A stretch of DNA of 64,000 nt from Akanthomyces muscarius. Taxonomy: Eukaryota; Ascomycota; Sordariomycetes; Hypocreales; Cordycipitaceae. Under the pieces are notes generated by a model that was not told where the DNA came from, searched no databases, and worked only from the letters and a program-made list of their open reading frames with translations. The position numbers and the translations under genes were made by a program. Where the stretch lies: NCBI RefSeq assembly GCF_028009165.1, contig NC_079242.1:4712001-4776000 (forward strand), in the 5' to 3' direction. Position 1 is the stretch's first letter. Each line of letters opens with the position of its first letter. Below are positions 10,986 to 21,296 of this stretch, in pieces.

Positions 10986-13712
10986 GACAATTTCAGCAAT
11001 TGCAACTTATATGTTGAGTAGAAATGCGAGTGTATTTTGAGGAGAAGTCGCGGTTTTCACAATCCGGGCGGCAGAGATGGGCCCATCGGTTGGAGTGCTG
11101 CGGTCCAAGACGAGTCAAGCGTGGAGCGCCGAAAGTTTGTTAAGCGGGTGGCTGTGGCGAGATGGTGTCGTCGGGTGCTGTTGATGGTGGGTGTTTGGGG
11201 TCAGCATGGACGAATTGTCGAGGGAAAAGGGTTATGGTCGCGGATATGGTGAGAACATGGCATCTGTCAAGGGGATGAGAAGAAGAGGGATGGAAGCGGA
11301 TGGGAAAGAAGCAAAACCGACGTCAGAAGCACAGAGTAGGTACCTAAGAGACGAGGCTTTGGGGGCGGCTGGTTGTGCGGGCAATGAACGGGTGAGCTTG
11401 AGTGGCAGGTCTTGGATGGAGGTCGTGGTGGGGACGAGTCCAGGACTGCCACTGGACCGGAGCAGCGAAAGCGGAAAGGCGCTGGAGCTAGCCCGCCAGC
11501 CCACTATTATGGTTGGAAATAGGCTGTCGGGAGGCGCTATAAGCTTGCGCCGCTACCAGTACCTAGTGCTGGAGCGGCCTGTCGTTACGAGGAGCCCTGG
11601 AATAGCGCCAAACGATGGCAGGGATCAGGCGGACGATCCGGGGACCCAGGTGCATTGCCAGCCTGCAGTCGACGGTAGAGGCTGGGAGGGAGGTACGTAG
11701 TAGTAGTACATGTGCCACGCACCCACCCTTGTGGCACATGTATCTCGAGGCTCTCCAGGTCGGTACGTCGGGACGGTTGGTGGTGGTCAGACACAGAATA
11801 CAAAGACGGCACGGCAGCCCAAATGCATAGCCCAAATGCATACATGCAAATGCAGAAGAAAAAAAACCCCCCCGAAAAGCATACCAACAAACACAGCACT
11901 TTTCCCATATATTTTGTCTAGCGCATGCACTCGGGAAAAGCAAGAGCCGCGCCGTGCCATCCCTAGTGGCTGCAACCAGACCCGACCCCTCCCTCTCTCC
12001 CGCACACGGCCACGCCGCCTGAAGAAACACTTGATGGAATCATGGAGCCACTGAGAGCCACCCAGCCACCACCACTTGCCTGCGCCGTAGCCTCGCTGAG
12101 CAGCCCGTTTGCCCGCCCCAAGCCCGTTGTAGAGCTGGTGGAGCGGCATCAGCCCATGGCCAGAGCGATACGAGCTACCAGAGAGGCGCTGCCTCGCAGG
12201 GAGGGGGTTGTAGTGGGTTTATACGAGCCTTCTCAGCACTTGCTCAAGGAGTTGGGAACATGCTGAGAACGTGCTTCTTATTAAACGATTTATTATCCGT
12301 ATGCGTAATCAAAAAAAAAATCCACGCACGCTCGTCAGGCTGGCGGGCGATGACCCAGTTTGCAGCATTGAGAATCAAGGTTCTGGAAATTACAGTGCAC
12401 TACAGACTCTCTTGCTCGGCGCCGGGGGGGTGATAGATGGCTGGCAAGGCAAAGCAGAGACAATGATGTGGTGCGACGTAAATAACCATAAAAGCAAGGA
12501 TAACTCGGTCTTCTCCGTACTCTATGCCTTTAGCTAGCTTCTCTCTGTTCACTTTTGTTTGAAGCCTGGCCTGTCTTGCTGTCCGCTGTTGTCCTGTGTC
12601 CAACACAGCCAGGCACTGCGGAATGCGGCCCCAGTGTTGAGAGTCGCATGTCGCTGTAAATTGTCGTGGAAGCCGCAGGCTTGATCAGTCTTGCTTCATT
12701 CATGAAACTCGGCACCAAAGCAGATGCAAATCGCGATGCCGAGCCTCCTCTCATCACCCGCTCCATGCCCCGGGATACGAGTGTCTTTTGGCTGGCTTGG
12801 TCGTGGCGCTTCTTAGTTGATCCTCTCTGTGTGTCCATCATCCAGGGCCTACGTCAGCGCCTCCGACAGCGCCTCCGAAATAGTTCTGTGAGCTTTTGAT
12901 ATTTTCCCCGCACCAATGATGTGAGGTTGACCCGCACAGGAGCTTCAGGCATGCTTTGTCCGTCTCTCTCATAATGCGCTATTGGGCTTTTCATCAAACG
13001 ACTACTCATGCACGACCCAATGCAAGGAATATGATCATCTCACAGCATAGAAAGGAACAGGGTCACACTCAGTCGTCTCTGGTTCCTTGTTTCAACCCCA
13101 TCAGGAACGGCAAAAAGCCGGATGTTGTCCCTGCGTTTACACAGCATCCATTCAAGCTCTGTTTGTGTCACAAATGGACCTGCATGGCACGCGCGCACTT
13201 CCGGTAGAAAGCGGACATGCAGCTTTTCCCCAACATTTATTGTGTCACAGAAGCTCCTCCAATCGAGTTTCGCCCCCTCTCGATCGCCTCGGCCGTGTTC
13301 CCTCCAAGATCCGGCTAGCTCAAGATAAGCCTACCTACATGGCTTTCCCGATCTTAACACACTGACGGCAACCAATAGGGAAGGCTCCTACTATACCTCA
13401 CTCTATATAACCTCTAGAGGTCCACTCCTACAAAATGTTACCAAAAAGGATCAGAAGAAAAGCTAAAGTAGCTAAGAATTACACCTTGGATGATAGCACA
13501 ATCATTTCTCGGGCGACAAAGGCTGTGTCCAGGCCGGCTACACGTGGACGGTTGTTAGCAAACGTGCTTGTAACGGTCCAACCCGGTTTCAAAACGTATC
13601 TTTGATATAACGCACATGACATATTGTTCTCTGACTTGCCAGGTATAGCCCTATCTCAATGCAGTTGTATGTACCCGCTAAAGATGTCTGCTCAGCAGTG
13701 CCATCACGAGCA
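10986..13712. other. Long gene-free stretch upstream of GH76 gene
   Basis: About 2.7 kb with no supported coding sequence. Open frames at 11191-11700 and 11563-12030 overlap antisense and have no domains. The proximal part probably holds the GH76 promoter and leader. A short imperfect repeat (CAGCGCCTCCGA, twice) lies near 12853-12877. An unspliced or non-coding transcript cannot be excluded. Confidence 0.45.
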
Positions 13713-14519
13713 TCACACTTCAAAAACAGATTCGTCTCCATCGTCTATCTCGTCTTCCAACAAAACATCCTCTTCCAATAGCATCTCAAGTTCCTCACCG
13801 TCATCATAATGACCGAAAGCTCTCTCGCCTTGGAGGCGCTTGTTGGAAAGCTGTTCTCCGTTATGAAGACGACGCTTTCGTAGAATTCGATACTCCACGG
13901 CAAAGATGCGCATCCCGGTAAGCCCGACACGACCTTCTCGGCCCGTTTCCCGGCTATTCTTGTACTGTCCTTCCAGAGGTAGATCTACTCCCGGGAGACC
14001 GGCCACTGCAAGAGCCTCCTTTGTAGGTACCTTCGTGTCAATACTGAAAGAGGAAATCGATGAACTGCTCTCGGTGAAGTCGATTTTACCCGTAACAAGC
14101 AATCCCGTGATGAGATATGCTTTTCTGCGTACCCAGTCCAGTTGACGTACTTCAGTTTCGATTCCCGGATGCTGTTCAAGTCGTCTGAAGACCTGATCAT
14201 GCTTATCAATGGAGTATCTAGTGACCTGGCTAGCTTCAATTTCAGGTGACGTTGCGCCACTTCTGGCGAACAAGGCGTCGAAGACGTCTGTAAGCTTGCC
14301 GTAGAGTTTGGTGCCTTGCTGGGATCTGAGAATTTCCGATACATCAGAGTAGCCGTTATCCACGCCAAATTTGTCTCCTCGAATAGGCTTAGCATCATCT
14401 GGACCATAAGAGCTCTGTGGAAAAGCATAATCCGTAACCACTCTTCCCAGCCATTCTTCCGGTGCATCGGTCCGGATAGTGCCGTGGCTACCCAGCAGAA
14501 AGAAGGATGGTTTTGACAT
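13713..14519 (-). CDS. Fungal gasdermin-like pore-forming protein (RCD-1/HET-Q1 type)
   Basis: Intronless, 268 residues from ATG 14519. This start was preferred over an upstream in-frame ATG at 14678 because family members open directly with the MSKPSFFLLGSHG-type strand. Features shared with fungal gasdermins as I know them are an N-terminal strand with a basic/acidic turn (IRTDAPEEWLG, residues 15-25), an amphipathic helix around IDKHDQVFRRLEQHP (104-118), the strand AYLITGLLVTGKIDF (134-148), and IFAVEYRILRKRRL closing the core (205-218). A basic linker (216-233) leads into a strongly acidic tail (239-268), the position of the autoinhibitory extension that protease cleavage removes in this family. 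Predicted role: a cytosolic executioner that permeabilises membranes after cleavage. It is divergent from the CHAT-protease NLR at 15548, the partner arrangement typical of fungal gasdermins. Assignment is by pattern recognition only. Confidence 0.78.
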   Translation of the reverse strand: MSKPSFFLLGSHGTIRTDAPEEWLGRVVTDYAFPQSSYGPDDAKPIRGDKFGVDNGYSDVSEILRSQQGTKLYGKLTDVFDALFARSGATSPEIEASQVTRYSIDKHDQVFRRLEQHPGIETEVRQLDWVRRKAYLITGLLVTGKIDFTESSSSISSFSIDTKVPTKEALAVAGLPGVDLPLEGQYKNSRETGREGRVGLTGMRIFAVEYRILRKRRLHNGEQLSNKRLQGERAFGHYDDGEELEMLLEEDVLLEDEIDDGDESVFEV

Positions 14520-15547
14520 TATGGTGCCCTTATGACCTGCTTCTTTTCTTCTCCCTTTTATTCTATGTGTTTCGAATAAGTCGGCCGGGGAGGTTTTGAA
14601 GCTTTGCTCTGCTGTCCAAGGCTGACCTGTCGAGGCCGTGGCTTGATGCAGAGGACGGAATAATCTTTTGATATACAAAAAGAAAAAAGCGCTAGACGGG
14701 AGATGCGAGCCAGAGATGTATGGTTACCAAGGAGGCAGGCGAATACGGTGGTGGAGCGGAACAGTGCGGCGAGACAAATGAGGGGTAATTGTCTTGACTG
14801 CATAGTGAGTGGTAGTTGGACGATGTGTGCCCAACCATAACTACCTTGTTTGCTCGTCACCCGCTTGTGCATGGCCAGGTTAAGGAGGTATTACCGTATT
14901 AGTTGTGGTAGTCCCGTAGTTAGCACTGGCTACCGTTGTAGCACCACTTTTCTTTGGCGTAATTTCGCCACGGCTAAAAGAGGGGATCTCTGCCTCGGAG
15001 ATGGCGTAACTATTCTATGCACTTATGGTTCCCGTCTCCCAACCGTAGCCAGTTAGTGAATATACCCATCTTGGTGACGAAAGCCGACAGTAGTATTCAA
15101 GCGCGGAAATAGCACACCGTGTTCAGTGACTATTGTGATCCACCTGGTAATTTCATGAAATCTGTAACAAGGCAGACTCGTGTTAGTCCGAGAGGTAATT
15201 TCTCTTCGCAGCGGTTGTCCAGCACTTCCATTGGACACCTCTAGCCGCCCATCCCCAAAAAGTAAGCCTGCAGCTTCAGCTTTCAGCGTAGCATTTCAGC
15301 CTTTGGGCTCCGATTTAATTTGCTTACTACATCAACGTTATTCCGCCTGTTCCTGTGCCTGGTATTTTCGCCCTCCTACCTCCTTAGTGCTCTTGCCATC
15401 GCTGCTACCTACTCTGCATCATCTCAGAGACACAAAATTGGCCGAGAGCCCAGCTACGGCGCATCTACTCCATCCACGGATACAGCATCGAATCTTAGTG
15501 GCCTAGGTGGCTATGAGCCTGGTTGTTTGCGTGCAGATCAGCTCACG
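14520..15547. promoter_or_regulatory. Divergent intergenic region of the gasdermin/CHAT pair
   Basis: About 1.03 kb between the two start codons. Part is open in the gasdermin frame (to 14678) and part in the CHAT frame (from 15320), but neither extension carries family sequence. The right-hand extension would begin with a hydrophobic signal-like stretch, unexpected for a cytosolic NLR. The region presumably carries both promoters. Confidence 0.5.
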
Positions 15548-18500
15548 ATGGACGCTCCGACGAAAACAATCGAAATCCACGGGCTTCCACAAAACGAAGA
15601 TGAAAATGAAAGAAAAGAGCCGGTCGTTCGGATAACTTGCAATGGAAACAGCCAAGTCGTTGTCATACCGTCAGAGTTTATACCAGAGGGAGATGGCTAC
15701 CTTCTATCATACCTGCGCTGGAACATCGAAGATTATGCGACGAAAGACCCATTTAAACGCATTGCACACTACGAACTTGAGAAGAAGCTGGCAAGCTACA
15801 TCTCCACTCTCATTGAACTTGTTCTCTCGCCACTAAAGCAACCCAACGATTTGCGGGGGAGCACAATCATCATCAAGGTATTAGACAGCTCCACAGCACC
15901 CTCTTCATCGTTAGCTATAAAAACCGGTGCAAACATTGTCCCATTGATGCAATGGGAGTGCCTCGAACAGATGAACATGTGGCCCGCCGAGGCGGCACCC
16001 AAAGTGGTCTCTGTACTCCGCTGCACGATTTGCGATCAGCATCGTAACCCCACCGGGGACGGTGCATCAATGCCGCCTTTTAGTGCCTATCAAATGCATG
16101 AACCTATGCGCCGAGTCTTGGCTCTGAGTGCTCGACCGAAAATTGCGGCCGACATCCCCCATCGCCTCATTACACGAACTATCTACGAAGTTGTTCAGTC
16201 GATACAGAGCAAGGTCGACTCGGTGGTTACACTTGATGTAGCTCGACCTGGAAGCCTTAAAGCTCTGAAAAAATCTCTGGATTCCCGCCCCTGGGGGTAT
16301 TATGACATAATTCATCTTGATGTTCACGGCGTCGCAGACGAGCAGAGGTAGGTTGGTTTCGCCAAGATGTCTCCAATGCATATACAACGTGTCTTCATCA
16401 AGTTTCGACGGCTAACTGAAATTCTTTATCAGTGCCACTCTACTTCTCTGCGATGATAAGGAAAGCAGTAAAGTGCACCATGTTCAGGCAATAGAACTTG
16501 CAAACGTCCTCCAAGCGCATGGCGTCCGATGCGTCATCACGAACGCTTGCCAGTCGGCCGCATTCAGCCACAATTTTGCAAGGACGTTGGTTCAACACGG
16601 TGCCTCGATGGTTTTAGGGATGCAGTACAAACTTCTAGAGTCTGCTGCAGAGGTTATGGTTCGTTCCATCTATCAAGATCTGTTGGATCTTGGACGGTCT
16701 GTGCCTGAAGCTGTCCTCCACGCTCGATGGCAGATGAGAATGAACCCGGACCGGCGTACCAAGTACAACGGTACTGTTCGAGTACTAGACTTCATGAGTC
16801 CTGTCCTATTTATGAGTAGTAGTTTGCTGGATCGAAAAGTGGACATTCGGCCCTTTCCAACAACGGTAGCAGATGATGATAATTCCCGAAAACGAAAACC
16901 ACGGGAAACATTGGTCGGCCGAGAATCCGCTATCTTGAACCTCGAAAACGACCTCCTCAGCTGCAACAACTTAATGTTCATCAGTGGCGCTGCCGGTTCA
17001 GGCAAATCTGCCCTGGCAGAACATGTTTCCTGGTGGTGGAAGGCAACAGGCATGGTGGCCGCGGTGCTCAAGATTGATTTTGCTACTTTCAGATCCGTCA
17101 AATGGTCTAGTATGATTGAGTTCCTCTGTTCCCAGGTCAGGGAGGAAATTGTAACGGACGAAGCCACACTGTCCAAGTACCTCACAGATAATCCGTGTCT
17201 CGTCGTGTTCGACAGCATAGATGAGCTAGAACCTACTACCTCTCTCGTCAACGCCATCTCGAGCTTCACAAAGCCGATACGCAAATCCTTTAAACGAACA
17301 GATACAGGCTCTTTTTTACTTTTTCTTGGGCGAGATGACAAGTCCGCCATTCGAAAGAGGACTGCAGCAGACCCACTGCATCTAGGCAAATTGAATCTGG
17401 AGTCTAGCCTGGAATTCTGTGCCAGCATACTAAAAGACAAAGGGAGAGATTTCGCCGGTGCTGACTCTAGAAGTGCTCACCATTTAGAGCAAATAGTTGT
17501 CCTCTTGGAACGCAATCCATTGGCTATGAAAATCGTCATGTTGGATTTCGACAGGCATGCCTCACTTGACATATCACAGTATTATGAACGCCTCACGTCA
17601 AACAAGGAGATTCAAATCGACAGTACTGTGATTTCTGAGCGCGCGGTTCAAGAAGCGTTCCGGTTAATTGAAACGCCGTGGGGGTTTCATTCATTTCAGC
17701 TTCCCGGCACTCCCATGACCTATCTCAGCCCGTTCTGGACAGTGATACCAGCAAATTTAGCGTCATATTGGAAGTTTCTTCATCTTGCACACTGCCGTGT
17801 GCAAGCTGCAAAACTCCACGCAAAGTCCCCCCCACCATCTGTTCTCAAAGCCGCGGCGCAAGAAATGGACGACGTTGAGTATGACTTTTTCCACAAGGTC
17901 ACTCTATCTGAGCTATGGGATCCCCTGGAGTTGGAGAGCTTGGACGCCGAATTCAGCACTACACTGTCCTGTATTTCTCGATCGGGGTTTCTGGACGACA
18001 AGTCGTTTGTGGACTTTGGGCCATCCGAAGCCACAAAGAACAAATATTTTACAATAAGCCCCATTGTAACAATATGTTTGAGGGCGCTGATAAATCATGA
18101 ACGGGGTATTGCAGAATGCAATGATCTCATCGCGACTGCTTTTCAACGGTTCTGTCGATGGCGGTATCAGCTTACATACGACAGCAACGGCGGTAACAGC
18201 TTATGTCCGAATCCGGCCAATCAGTCGCAAAAGAACCAGCTGTCCTATGAGGCGGAGAACATCATAACTACGATGAATTTCATGTTTTCAACGACATTCA
18301 ACCCTTATAACTGGCATTTCATATACCACAGAATACATAGCGACTTTGCCGGTTATCACCTGCGCTTACTGACCGTGGTTATCCCTGTCTTAGAACGTGG
18401 GATAGACCATTATACAGCAGCACTCCAGGAACTCAAGCCGAACACCTTGAGTCGATACTGGAATAGAGTATTATGGACTGGGCTGAGAATTAAACTGAAA

Positions 18501-19205
18501 ATGCTTCCCAAAAGGCACAGTTCGCAGGATCCGGGTACTTTTAAATATTCTCTCTTCTTCGCAACCCTGGACTGCTGTTTTGCGCTACTTGGATCGGCGA
18601 CACTGTATGCAGATTATGCGGGATTCGAAATTTCCAAATACCAAGTTCAAGCAAAGCATTTGTTACGACTTGCTAAGTCTGACCATCGAAGCGAGAAGGC
18701 GAGAACATTGCTGGAGTCTATGGAGATATTGGGAAAGGTATATACAGACATTGAACTGAAAGGCCCTAAATTCGAAAAGGTTCGGTTATTAGCCAATGTG
18801 CAGAAGCAAAAGAGAATGGGTCTCAACATGACCGATATAGGAACGGCTCTGACTGGCTCATTAGAACGGGCGTTGGAATATGATGAGAACCTCCCTACCG
18901 AGGAGGTAACTATCCGTGACGAACAGGCTCATAAGCTTCTCGAACAAGCTTATGAGAACTATGGAAACCACACCCAGCCCGTTCTAATTTATCGTCTGCA
19001 TATGGAGTTGTTCATGTACGCCCTTCATGACTGGAAGGAGGGTGAGAGTTGGGAAACCGGAAAACTAGATCGTGCTCTAGTACATGTAAAGGCAATGCAT
19101 GATATTTGTTCTAGGCTTTCCCCAGAAGAACCTTGGGCAACTGTTTTACGGCAGCTTAACCCACTGAAAGAGGATTTTGATTATCTCTTTAATACTACTA
19201 TATAG
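15548..19205 (+). CDS. CHAT caspase-like protease fused to a STAND (NLR-type) NTPase
   Basis: Two exons (15548-16347 and 16433-19205), with an 85-bp intron carrying a GCTAAC branch site, give about 1190 residues. The CHAT domain (roughly residues 170-400) has the catalytic dyad context: HLDVHG with H260 and NACQSA with C306, then HGASMVLGMQYKLL and the SVPEAVLHAR helix. A P-loop NTPase follows from about 435: LVGRE, Walker A GAAGSGKS (452-459), Walker B LVVFDSIDEL (D527), an arginine-bearing strand LFLGRDD, and a GLPLA-like RNPLAM (about 626). The C-terminal 500 residues are helical without canonical TPR, ANK or WD repeats. CHAT domains are caspase-fold cysteine peptidases of the separase/caspase clan. 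On an NLR switch next to a gasdermin, this is expected to sense a cue, oligomerise and cut the gasdermin. No frame damage is seen. An upstream in-frame ATG at 15320 is possible but less likely. Confidence 0.87.
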
Positions 19206-19384
19206 TTAGAATTATCACTGTCTACTTTTGTAAAAGAGAGTATATTATTGTTAATACTCTAGTAAGCTCCTGCGACTTTAGCCACTACCCATGTTTGTAA
19301 CCCTGTGCGCATTGGCGCTCGCCAGCTTGTCGAAGGCGCTCAAAACAAATGACCTCAGCGAATCAGTCGATGCTTTGGTATAAG
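19206..19384. other. Degenerate sequence between CHAT gene and NLR remnant
   Basis: Short open pieces with no domain. Probably the eroded 5' part of the NB-ARC gene that follows. Confidence 0.4.
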
Positions 19385-21296
19385 AGGTGACATTTGTACT
19401 AACGCAAATCTTGGGACAGACGGGACTCCAACCACCTTTGCTTCTGTCATTCAAGTAAGATGAATTCCCATATCGCTGTTTTGCTCAAGCTTACAAACGA
19501 CTAGGAATACCCAATCCGTCTAACGAGCAAACAAACAAGTGCGTTACATCAGTTTAGTTGAGCTTTCTACTAATCTTTCCCTAGATTCACACGAACTTTG
19601 CTGGACGGTTCCTTTCCAGAGAAATCCACGCTTCGTTGGGCGCGCTTCGCTGCTAGAAAAGCTAGACACGGCATTATTTGCCAAGGAGTCGCCTTCGAAA
19701 GTCTCCCTGTTTGGACTGGGAGGTGTAGGGAAGACGCAGGTGGCCATTGAGCTAGCATATCGGACAAGAGCGAAGCACTCTCTATGCTCTATTATCTGGA
19801 TACCCACAAACAACACTGAACGGCTGCGGCAAGCATATATTGATGCTGCAGAGCAGCTGGGAATAGCCGTGAAAGACGACAAGACTGATGTGAAACGACT
19901 CGTGCAGCGCCACCTCAGCCATGACTCGGCTGGTCAATGGCTCTTGATCTACGACAATGCCGATGATCTCGACATGTGGATCCCAAGAACTGGGAGCCAG
20001 AACAGCCAGCCGGGCCTACTCGAATATGTACCGCAGAGCAAGCAGGGCTGCGTGGTCTTTACGACGCGGAGCAGGAAAATTGCTCTTAGACTGTCGCCGG
20101 ATGGGCTTAGAGAAAGAGTTCCGCAAATGGATGACAAGACTGCCCTTCAACTCCTATCTGGCCGACTCAACCGAGAAGTGCCAGAGAGGCATGAGGAAGG
20201 TCACGCACTCATCAAGAAACTGTGCCACTTGCCACTGGCGATTGTCCAGGCAGCTGCATATATTGACGCGAATCAGTCCTCTTGCGCAGAATATCTCGAT
20301 CTTCTCGACGAAAAGGAGGAAGACGTGGTCAAGCTTTTAAGCGAGAATTTTGGGGATGAAGGGGGCTACCACACGTTTAAAGACCCTGTGGCCTCGACCT
20401 GGCTCATTTCTTTCAAGCAGATGCAGCAGTCAGACCCTGTGGCATTTGAGTACCTGTCGATTATGTCCTGCTTTGATTCCAAGGACATCCCGCAATCTCT
20501 TTTGCCGCCTAATAAGTCGCGTAAAGAGGAAGTGGATGCCATGGGAACATTGTCGGCGTACTCATTTGTCAGCCGACAGCTGACAACGACATTCCTTGAT
20601 ACGCACGGGCTAGTACATCTTGCAATGCGGAACTGGCTGAAGGAAGAAGAAAAGACCTTTACCTTATGGATGCACAAGGCAGTTACAAGGTTAGATGCCG
20701 TGTTCCCAGCCTTGGACCACGCGGCTGTGGACCTCGAGAGCAGGAACGTGTGGAGACCATACTTGCCGCATGCGCGCCATCTCTTGCGATTCTGCCTTTC
20801 GGGAGAGGCGGGTGAACGAGGAACAAGCGTTGTATGGAAGTTTGGTCTGTGTGCGTACATAGATGGGTCGTACAGTGAAGCCGAGAGCTGCTTTTCGTAT
20901 GTAATGGAGACGCGCAAGAGGGCACTAGGAGCCGAGCATCCCTCCACGCTAGACAGCATGCATTGTCTGGCGTCGACGTACAGACAGCAGCAGGGCCGAT
21001 GGGAGGAGGCGGAGAGGCTTGAGGTGCAGGTGCTGGAAACTCGCAAGAGGGCACCAGGGGCCGAGCATCGCTCGACGCTAGCTTGTATGGCTTTCCCAGC
21101 ATTAACACATAAAAACCAGGAGCAATGGGAGGAGGCAGACGTGGCAGAGAGGCTTGAAGCATAGGTGATTAAGACGAGGCTTAAGGCAGACTATCCTAAG
21201 ACGCTAGTCAGTATAGCCAACCTAGTGTCAACATAGGAACCAGGGCCGATGGAAGGAAGCAGAGAGACTTCTGGAGGAGATGATGGAAACGAGTGA
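19385..21296 (+). pseudogene. Decayed NB-ARC/TPR NLR
   Basis: The preserved part runs 19585-21161 and encodes PFQRNPRFVGR, Walker A FGLGGVGKT, Walker B WLLIYDNADD, a CVVFTTRSR strand, LPLAIVQAAAYI, then kinesin-light-chain-like TPR units (ETRKRALGAEHPSTL, WEEAERLEVQVLETRKRA). It has no usable ATG: the frame opens at a GTG that is better read as a donor. Two small introns (19455-19504 and 19539-19584, the latter with a TACTAAT branch) connect it in phase to upstream pieces that fade into stops, so the N-terminal effector domain is gone. The TPR array is broken by TAG at 21162-21164, where sister repeats have Gln (CAG to TAG), and again near 21230 by an apparent 2-base loss. TPR-coding sequence then continues in another frame to about 21296. 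A truncated protein could still be made. Confidence 0.72.

Follow-up and report, generated by a model that had tools for sequence, protein, structure and literature searches.

Between positions 13713 and 19205 of a 64,000-nucleotide stretch of Akanthomyces muscarius DNA (the window, C2:4712001-4776000 of a fungal assembly of 36.2 Mb in 12 contigs) lie two divergent genes which, with a probability that we put at about three in four, form a two-gene pyroptosis-like suicide module, made up of a tail-inhibited gasdermin and a CHAT-NACHT receptor-protease that activates the gasdermin by cleavage. The minus-strand gene would encode a fungal gasdermin whose short, acidic C-terminal tail keeps it inactive, and the plus-strand gene an NLR-type receptor in which a caspase-related CHAT effector at the N-terminus is followed by a NACHT switch and, at the C-terminus, a sensor that diverges fast. 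On meeting its cue, the sensor would let NACHT oligomerise and the CHAT protease become active. CHAT would then cleave the gasdermin close to where the tail begins, the likeliest place being in or around the conserved motif GERxFG (residues 231-236), and the core, once released, would form membrane pores and cause cell death, possibly in the service of defence or allorecognition. The structures of both genes are clear, and the CHAT and NACHT domains are present with intact motifs. An initial annotation, made from the letters of the window, had arrived at the same overall reading; its gasdermin fold, CHAT and NACHT domains and linkage were supported here, while for the cleavage step, the trigger and the allorecognition role we infer no more than it did.

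The CHAT-NACHT gene consists of two plus-strand open frames, 15548-16351 and 16416-19205, which are spliced to a protein of 1190 residues without stops. As judged from the open reading frames (ORFs), Pfam and splicing, exon 1 (15548..16347) codes for the N-terminal part and the first half of CHAT, including His260 at 16325-16327, and exon 2 (16433..19205, stop codon included) for the second half of CHAT (Cys306 at 16548-16550), NACHT and the C-terminal part. They are separated by an intron of 85 nt on the plus strand (16348..16432, GT..AG) which contains the branch-like sequence CTAAC. The exon join is supported by two annotated relatives: P0013 of Microthyrium microscopicum is continuous across the same place (HLDVHGEADEDSATLL versus HLDVHGVADEQSATLL), and P0011 of Oculimacula yallundae spans it without a gap. 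The possibility that the gene is broken was therefore rejected, since the change of frame at 16348-16432 is an ordinary GT..AG intron. Thus, the neighbour described initially as intact and of roughly 1190 residues does have this length and no stops, in two exons rather than one ORF.

Two domains of this protein scored above the curated cut-offs of Pfam, confirming its proposed CHAT and STAND identity. CHAT (PF12770; residues 209-375, 16172..16757, spanning the intron) was matched with an E value of 3e-14 and 53.6 bits (cut-off 24), and NACHT (PF05729; residues 447-553, 16971..17291) with 1.7e-8 and 35 bits (cut-off 26.7). The NACHT of the relative P0011 also matches that of NLRP5 in PDB (E 0.0026). 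The motifs and residue numbers given in the initial annotation were correct: HLDVHG occupies residues 256-261 and NACQSA residues 304-309, with H260 and C306, which we take to be the catalytic pair of CHAT proteases, and Walker A (GAAGSGKS, residues 452-459, 16986-17009) and Walker B (LVVFDSIDEL, residues 523-532, 17199-17228) follow, all on the plus strand. Among seven homologues, HLDVHG is kept in both of those that cover the region, and NACQSA in all five.

The C-terminal region (residues 701-1190, 17733..19202) is the most divergent between relatives and has no Pfam match at E 0.01; neither WD40, ANK nor TPR repeats were matched at this threshold, which divergent repeats could escape. Over the 95 residues of the CHAT part that were compared, identity to P0008 is 60%; it is 56% in NACHT and falls to 30% and 26% in two C-terminal stretches, the pattern expected for a receptor that evolves most rapidly at its sensor end. 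From its sequence, residues 701-1190 may thus be the sensor. A search of the host genome with exon 2 found no second CHAT-NACHT copy.

The minus-strand gene (13713..14519, stop codon included) is a single exon whose ORF, as initially annotated, encodes 268 residues counted from ATG, with no internal stop. Its assignment relies on the ORF, on homologues, and on the similarity of its predicted fold to gasdermins, RCD-1 among them. Six homologues, P0001 to P0006, are 100%, 90%, 55%, 50%, 49% and 45% identical to it in the search table; the one near-identical copy seen, P0001, differs by the single change R190Q. Because conserved homologues exist for both proteins of the pair, both ORFs are more than chance. 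The protein itself matched nothing in Pfam, nor any PDB sequence at E 10. None of the seven family members matched Pfam or PADLOC, in searches that included no fungal gasdermin profile, and no gasdermin was among their PDB sequence matches. In a comparison by sequence with bacterial gasdermin systems that include proteases, only P0006 (1/7) reaches the prokaryotic gasdermin model of NCBIfam, prok_gasdermin (residues 117-160 to model positions 126-169, E 0.011, far below the cut-off of the model). The protein could thus not be linked to described gasdermins by sequence search, and a subfamily that sequence searches of Pfam, PADLOC and PDB do not detect could escape routine annotation. The gasdermin fold which the initial annotation had expected from a structure prediction was retrieved, in a model of low confidence: gasdermins filled rows 1-21 of the 22 entries of the fold comparison, RCD-1 being first. 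A model built from 3 sequences gave no gasdermins in 17 entries. It is by the specificity of its match list, not by the quality of the model, that the protein appears to have a gasdermin-type fold.

The acidic C-terminal tail noted earlier was also borne out: residues 233-268 (13716..13823, minus strand), the last 36 of the protein, hold 16 D/E and 1 K/R. Within it lies the motif LEDEIDD (13740-13760, minus strand), and ahead of it the basic stretch RILRKRR (residues 211-217, 13869..13889, minus strand), which ends the best conserved block and precedes GERxFG. Both EDE[IV]D[DE] and GERxFG are present in 7/7 members of the window family, two being near-identical copies, and in neither of two paralogues (L008 and L015). 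Conservation in the tail reaches 0.67 in residues 253-264 versus 0.58 in 229-240 and 0.57 in 241-252, and of the 23 blocks into which the protein was divided, the one with LEDE[IV]D[DE] is among the five with the highest conservation. By analogy with HET-Q1 of Podospora, a protein of 278 residues which loses 40 residues after F238 (PMC10989679), the tail is probably autoinhibitory, and cleavage near residue 235 would shorten the protein by about 33 residues. RILRKRR may be a lipid-binding or tail-binding surface, and the acidic tail may cover the basic surface. An unlikely further role for LEDE[IV]D[DE] is that of a docking handle which holds the gasdermin pre-assembled on its own CHAT-NACHT receptor, as a one-receptor inflammasome; the two proteins would evolve together as exclusive partners, and mismatched partners brought together by cell fusion might be read as non-self. 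We considered this because the motif is strongly conserved and confined to relatives of the window gene, while the C-terminus of the partner NLR diverges fast.

The intergenic region common to both genes (14520..15547, from the ORF coordinates) measures 1,028 bp, in agreement with the 1 kb first estimated, and the genes are adjacent, divergent and well within 10 kb of each other. Their homologues also appear to be linked in relatives, as the initial annotation had predicted. Three of the six gasdermin homologues are on contigs of the same size as that of a CHAT-NACHT homologue, namely P0003/P0008 (38,449 bases), P0006/P0009 (48,714) and P0005/P0013 (2,777,148), a count that takes equal size to mean the same contig. 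The last two, from Microthyrium, bear the locus tags BT63DRAFT_423764 and 423766. The contigs of P0001 and P0002 are of 6,094 and 9,842 bases, both below 10 kb, and for P0004, on a contig of 27,953 bases, no CHAT-NACHT partner was found. Since CHAT-NACHT proteins occur in both the dothideomycete Microthyrium (P0013) and the leotiomycete Oculimacula, the family must be old within Pezizomycotina or have moved between lineages.

A second pair of this kind was found in the host genome. With the window protein as query, only its self-match was obtained at E 0.001. However, P0006 found a second gasdermin-like gene (C3:193651-194292, E 8.4e-4), which the window-family profile picked out from the ORFs at four CHAT loci (E 1.8e-9), and which found the window gene in the reverse search (E 0.0049). 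The second gene in turn retrieved a third (C1:271447-272223, E 8.9e-8), and the search in the opposite direction gave an E value of 6.1e-8. In shuffle controls with the window-family profile, the second gene scored 32.4 bits against 5.0 for the best shuffle (1,283 scoring of 2,000 made), and the third 18.2 bits against 11.2 for the best of 1,436 scoring shuffles. The second gene (L009:6595-7422, plus strand) is divergent from a 1149-residue ORF with a C-terminal CHAT (L009:2662-6108, minus strand, E 5e-24), in which no other Pfam domain, and hence no NACHT, was matched at E 0.01; its long N-terminal part gives the impression of helical repeats. This pair (L009:2662-7422, equal to C3:189661-194421) is spaced by about 0.6 kb if the first Met is the start, and lies 0.19 Mb from the contig end. 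The third gene is in a 324-residue open frame (L015:1489-2343, C1:271435-272289), 0.27 Mb from the contig end. With two divergent gasdermin-like/CHAT pairs of different architecture in one genome, only one of which has a NACHT match, it becomes possible to compare how different sensors might drive related gasdermins. A weak match on C5 (E 0.0043), with one stop inside and opposite a 504-residue ORF, and a match on C7 (E 0.9) were dropped.

Several results from the same genome weigh against a general coupling of gasdermin and CHAT. Only 2/5 CHAT places have an adjacent gasdermin-like gene, the window-family profile finding none in the 10-kb stretches around the CHAT loci L010, L011 and L012, and no CHAT or S8 match was found near the third gasdermin-like gene, one of three such genes. 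The latter would suit a real gasdermin that needs no cleavage for its activation, in the way that RCD-1 responds to meeting a different allele, with the CHAT-NLR as an independent defence gene that co-inheritance keeps nearby. Also in line with this explanation, RCD-1 is the best fold match, and it is described as being activated by the co-expression of two allelic variants (PMC10197012). We consider it rather improbable in view of the conserved acidic tail of the window family, the apparent linkage to one CHAT-NACHT subfamily in half of the homologues and the second divergent pair.

It is less probable still that the CHAT-NACHT protein acts on another target, or is a non-proteolytic scaffold, and that the gasdermin is cut by another protease. 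Both the activity and the substrate of CHAT-NACHT are predictions from sequence, and the Pfam CHAT match is partial (profile positions 104-273 of 289). Against this, the dyad motifs are kept in all homologues that cover them, and activation of a gasdermin by CHAT has been published in Podospora (PMC12881547). We give the smallest chance to the 268-residue protein being an unrelated fungal effector whose poor model matched gasdermins by accident. The reading that we prefer is that the neighbouring CHAT-NACHT protein cleaves the gasdermin.

This type of pairing is already described in other fungi: the finding is correct, but the locus adds a good example to a known kind of system. No description of this particular pair was found in the literature searched, judged by titles and the starts of abstracts, as the initial annotation had supposed. 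The Q2L clusters (Clave et al. 2022, PNAS; via PMC10197012, PMC12881547, PMC9815663 and PMC10989679) are fungal two-gene clusters of a gasdermin and a CHAT protease. In them, as here, a short gasdermin with a short C-tail is encoded next to an NLR that carries a CHAT protease, whereas the C-terminal part here has no WD40, ANK or TPR match in Pfam at E 0.01. About 1,900 fungal gasdermins are reported, 19% of them near CHAT genes, together with dozens of CHAT NLRs (PMC10197012); this share is 17-19% across reviews (PMC10197012, PMC12881547, PMC10989679). In Aspergillus fumigatus, a CHAT protease is reported from hetB, a het locus (PMC11138114). HET-Q1 of Podospora anserina is similar in size (278 versus 268 residues) and has a short removable tail (PMC10989679), a removal that is presumed here. 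In contrast to the neighbouring NLR here, the partner of HET-Q1, HET-Q2, is an S8 protease and idiomorph at the same locus (PMC12881547). RCD-1 of Neurospora crassa differs in that its activation is described as a result of the meeting of two allelic forms, not of cleavage (PMC10197012). With receptor and caspase-like protease in one protein beside the presumed pore protein, the path from sensing to execution becomes testable with two genes. In animals, NLR, caspase and gasdermin are separate parts.

Two other CHAT genes of the host genome, both on C3, differ in their surroundings or domains. The gene at L012:3193-5437 has the similar-looking motifs HFDLHG and LNACLSA, with no gasdermin-like gene found beside it within 10 kb, and the 1246-residue ORF at L010:4074-7811 combines a C-terminal CHAT with a weak match to Peptidase_C50 (separase; E 0.00093). 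In the window, G+C over the module (13000-20000) is 0.45-0.50 versus 0.51-0.63 in the flanking 1-kb steps (8-13 kb and 20-30 kb), except for one step at 28-29 kb (0.488); such low G+C is as for a young or fast-evolving insert. Directly behind the CHAT-NACHT gene lies a 546-residue NB-ARC/TPR ORF (19524-21164, plus strand), followed by TPR-like remains and more stops. It was rejected as a third member of the module, since its first listed ATG (19974) is inside NB-ARC and its frame ends partway through the TPR repeats. The ORF resembles the relic of an NLR, and related NB-ARC/TPR ORFs are present elsewhere in the host genome.
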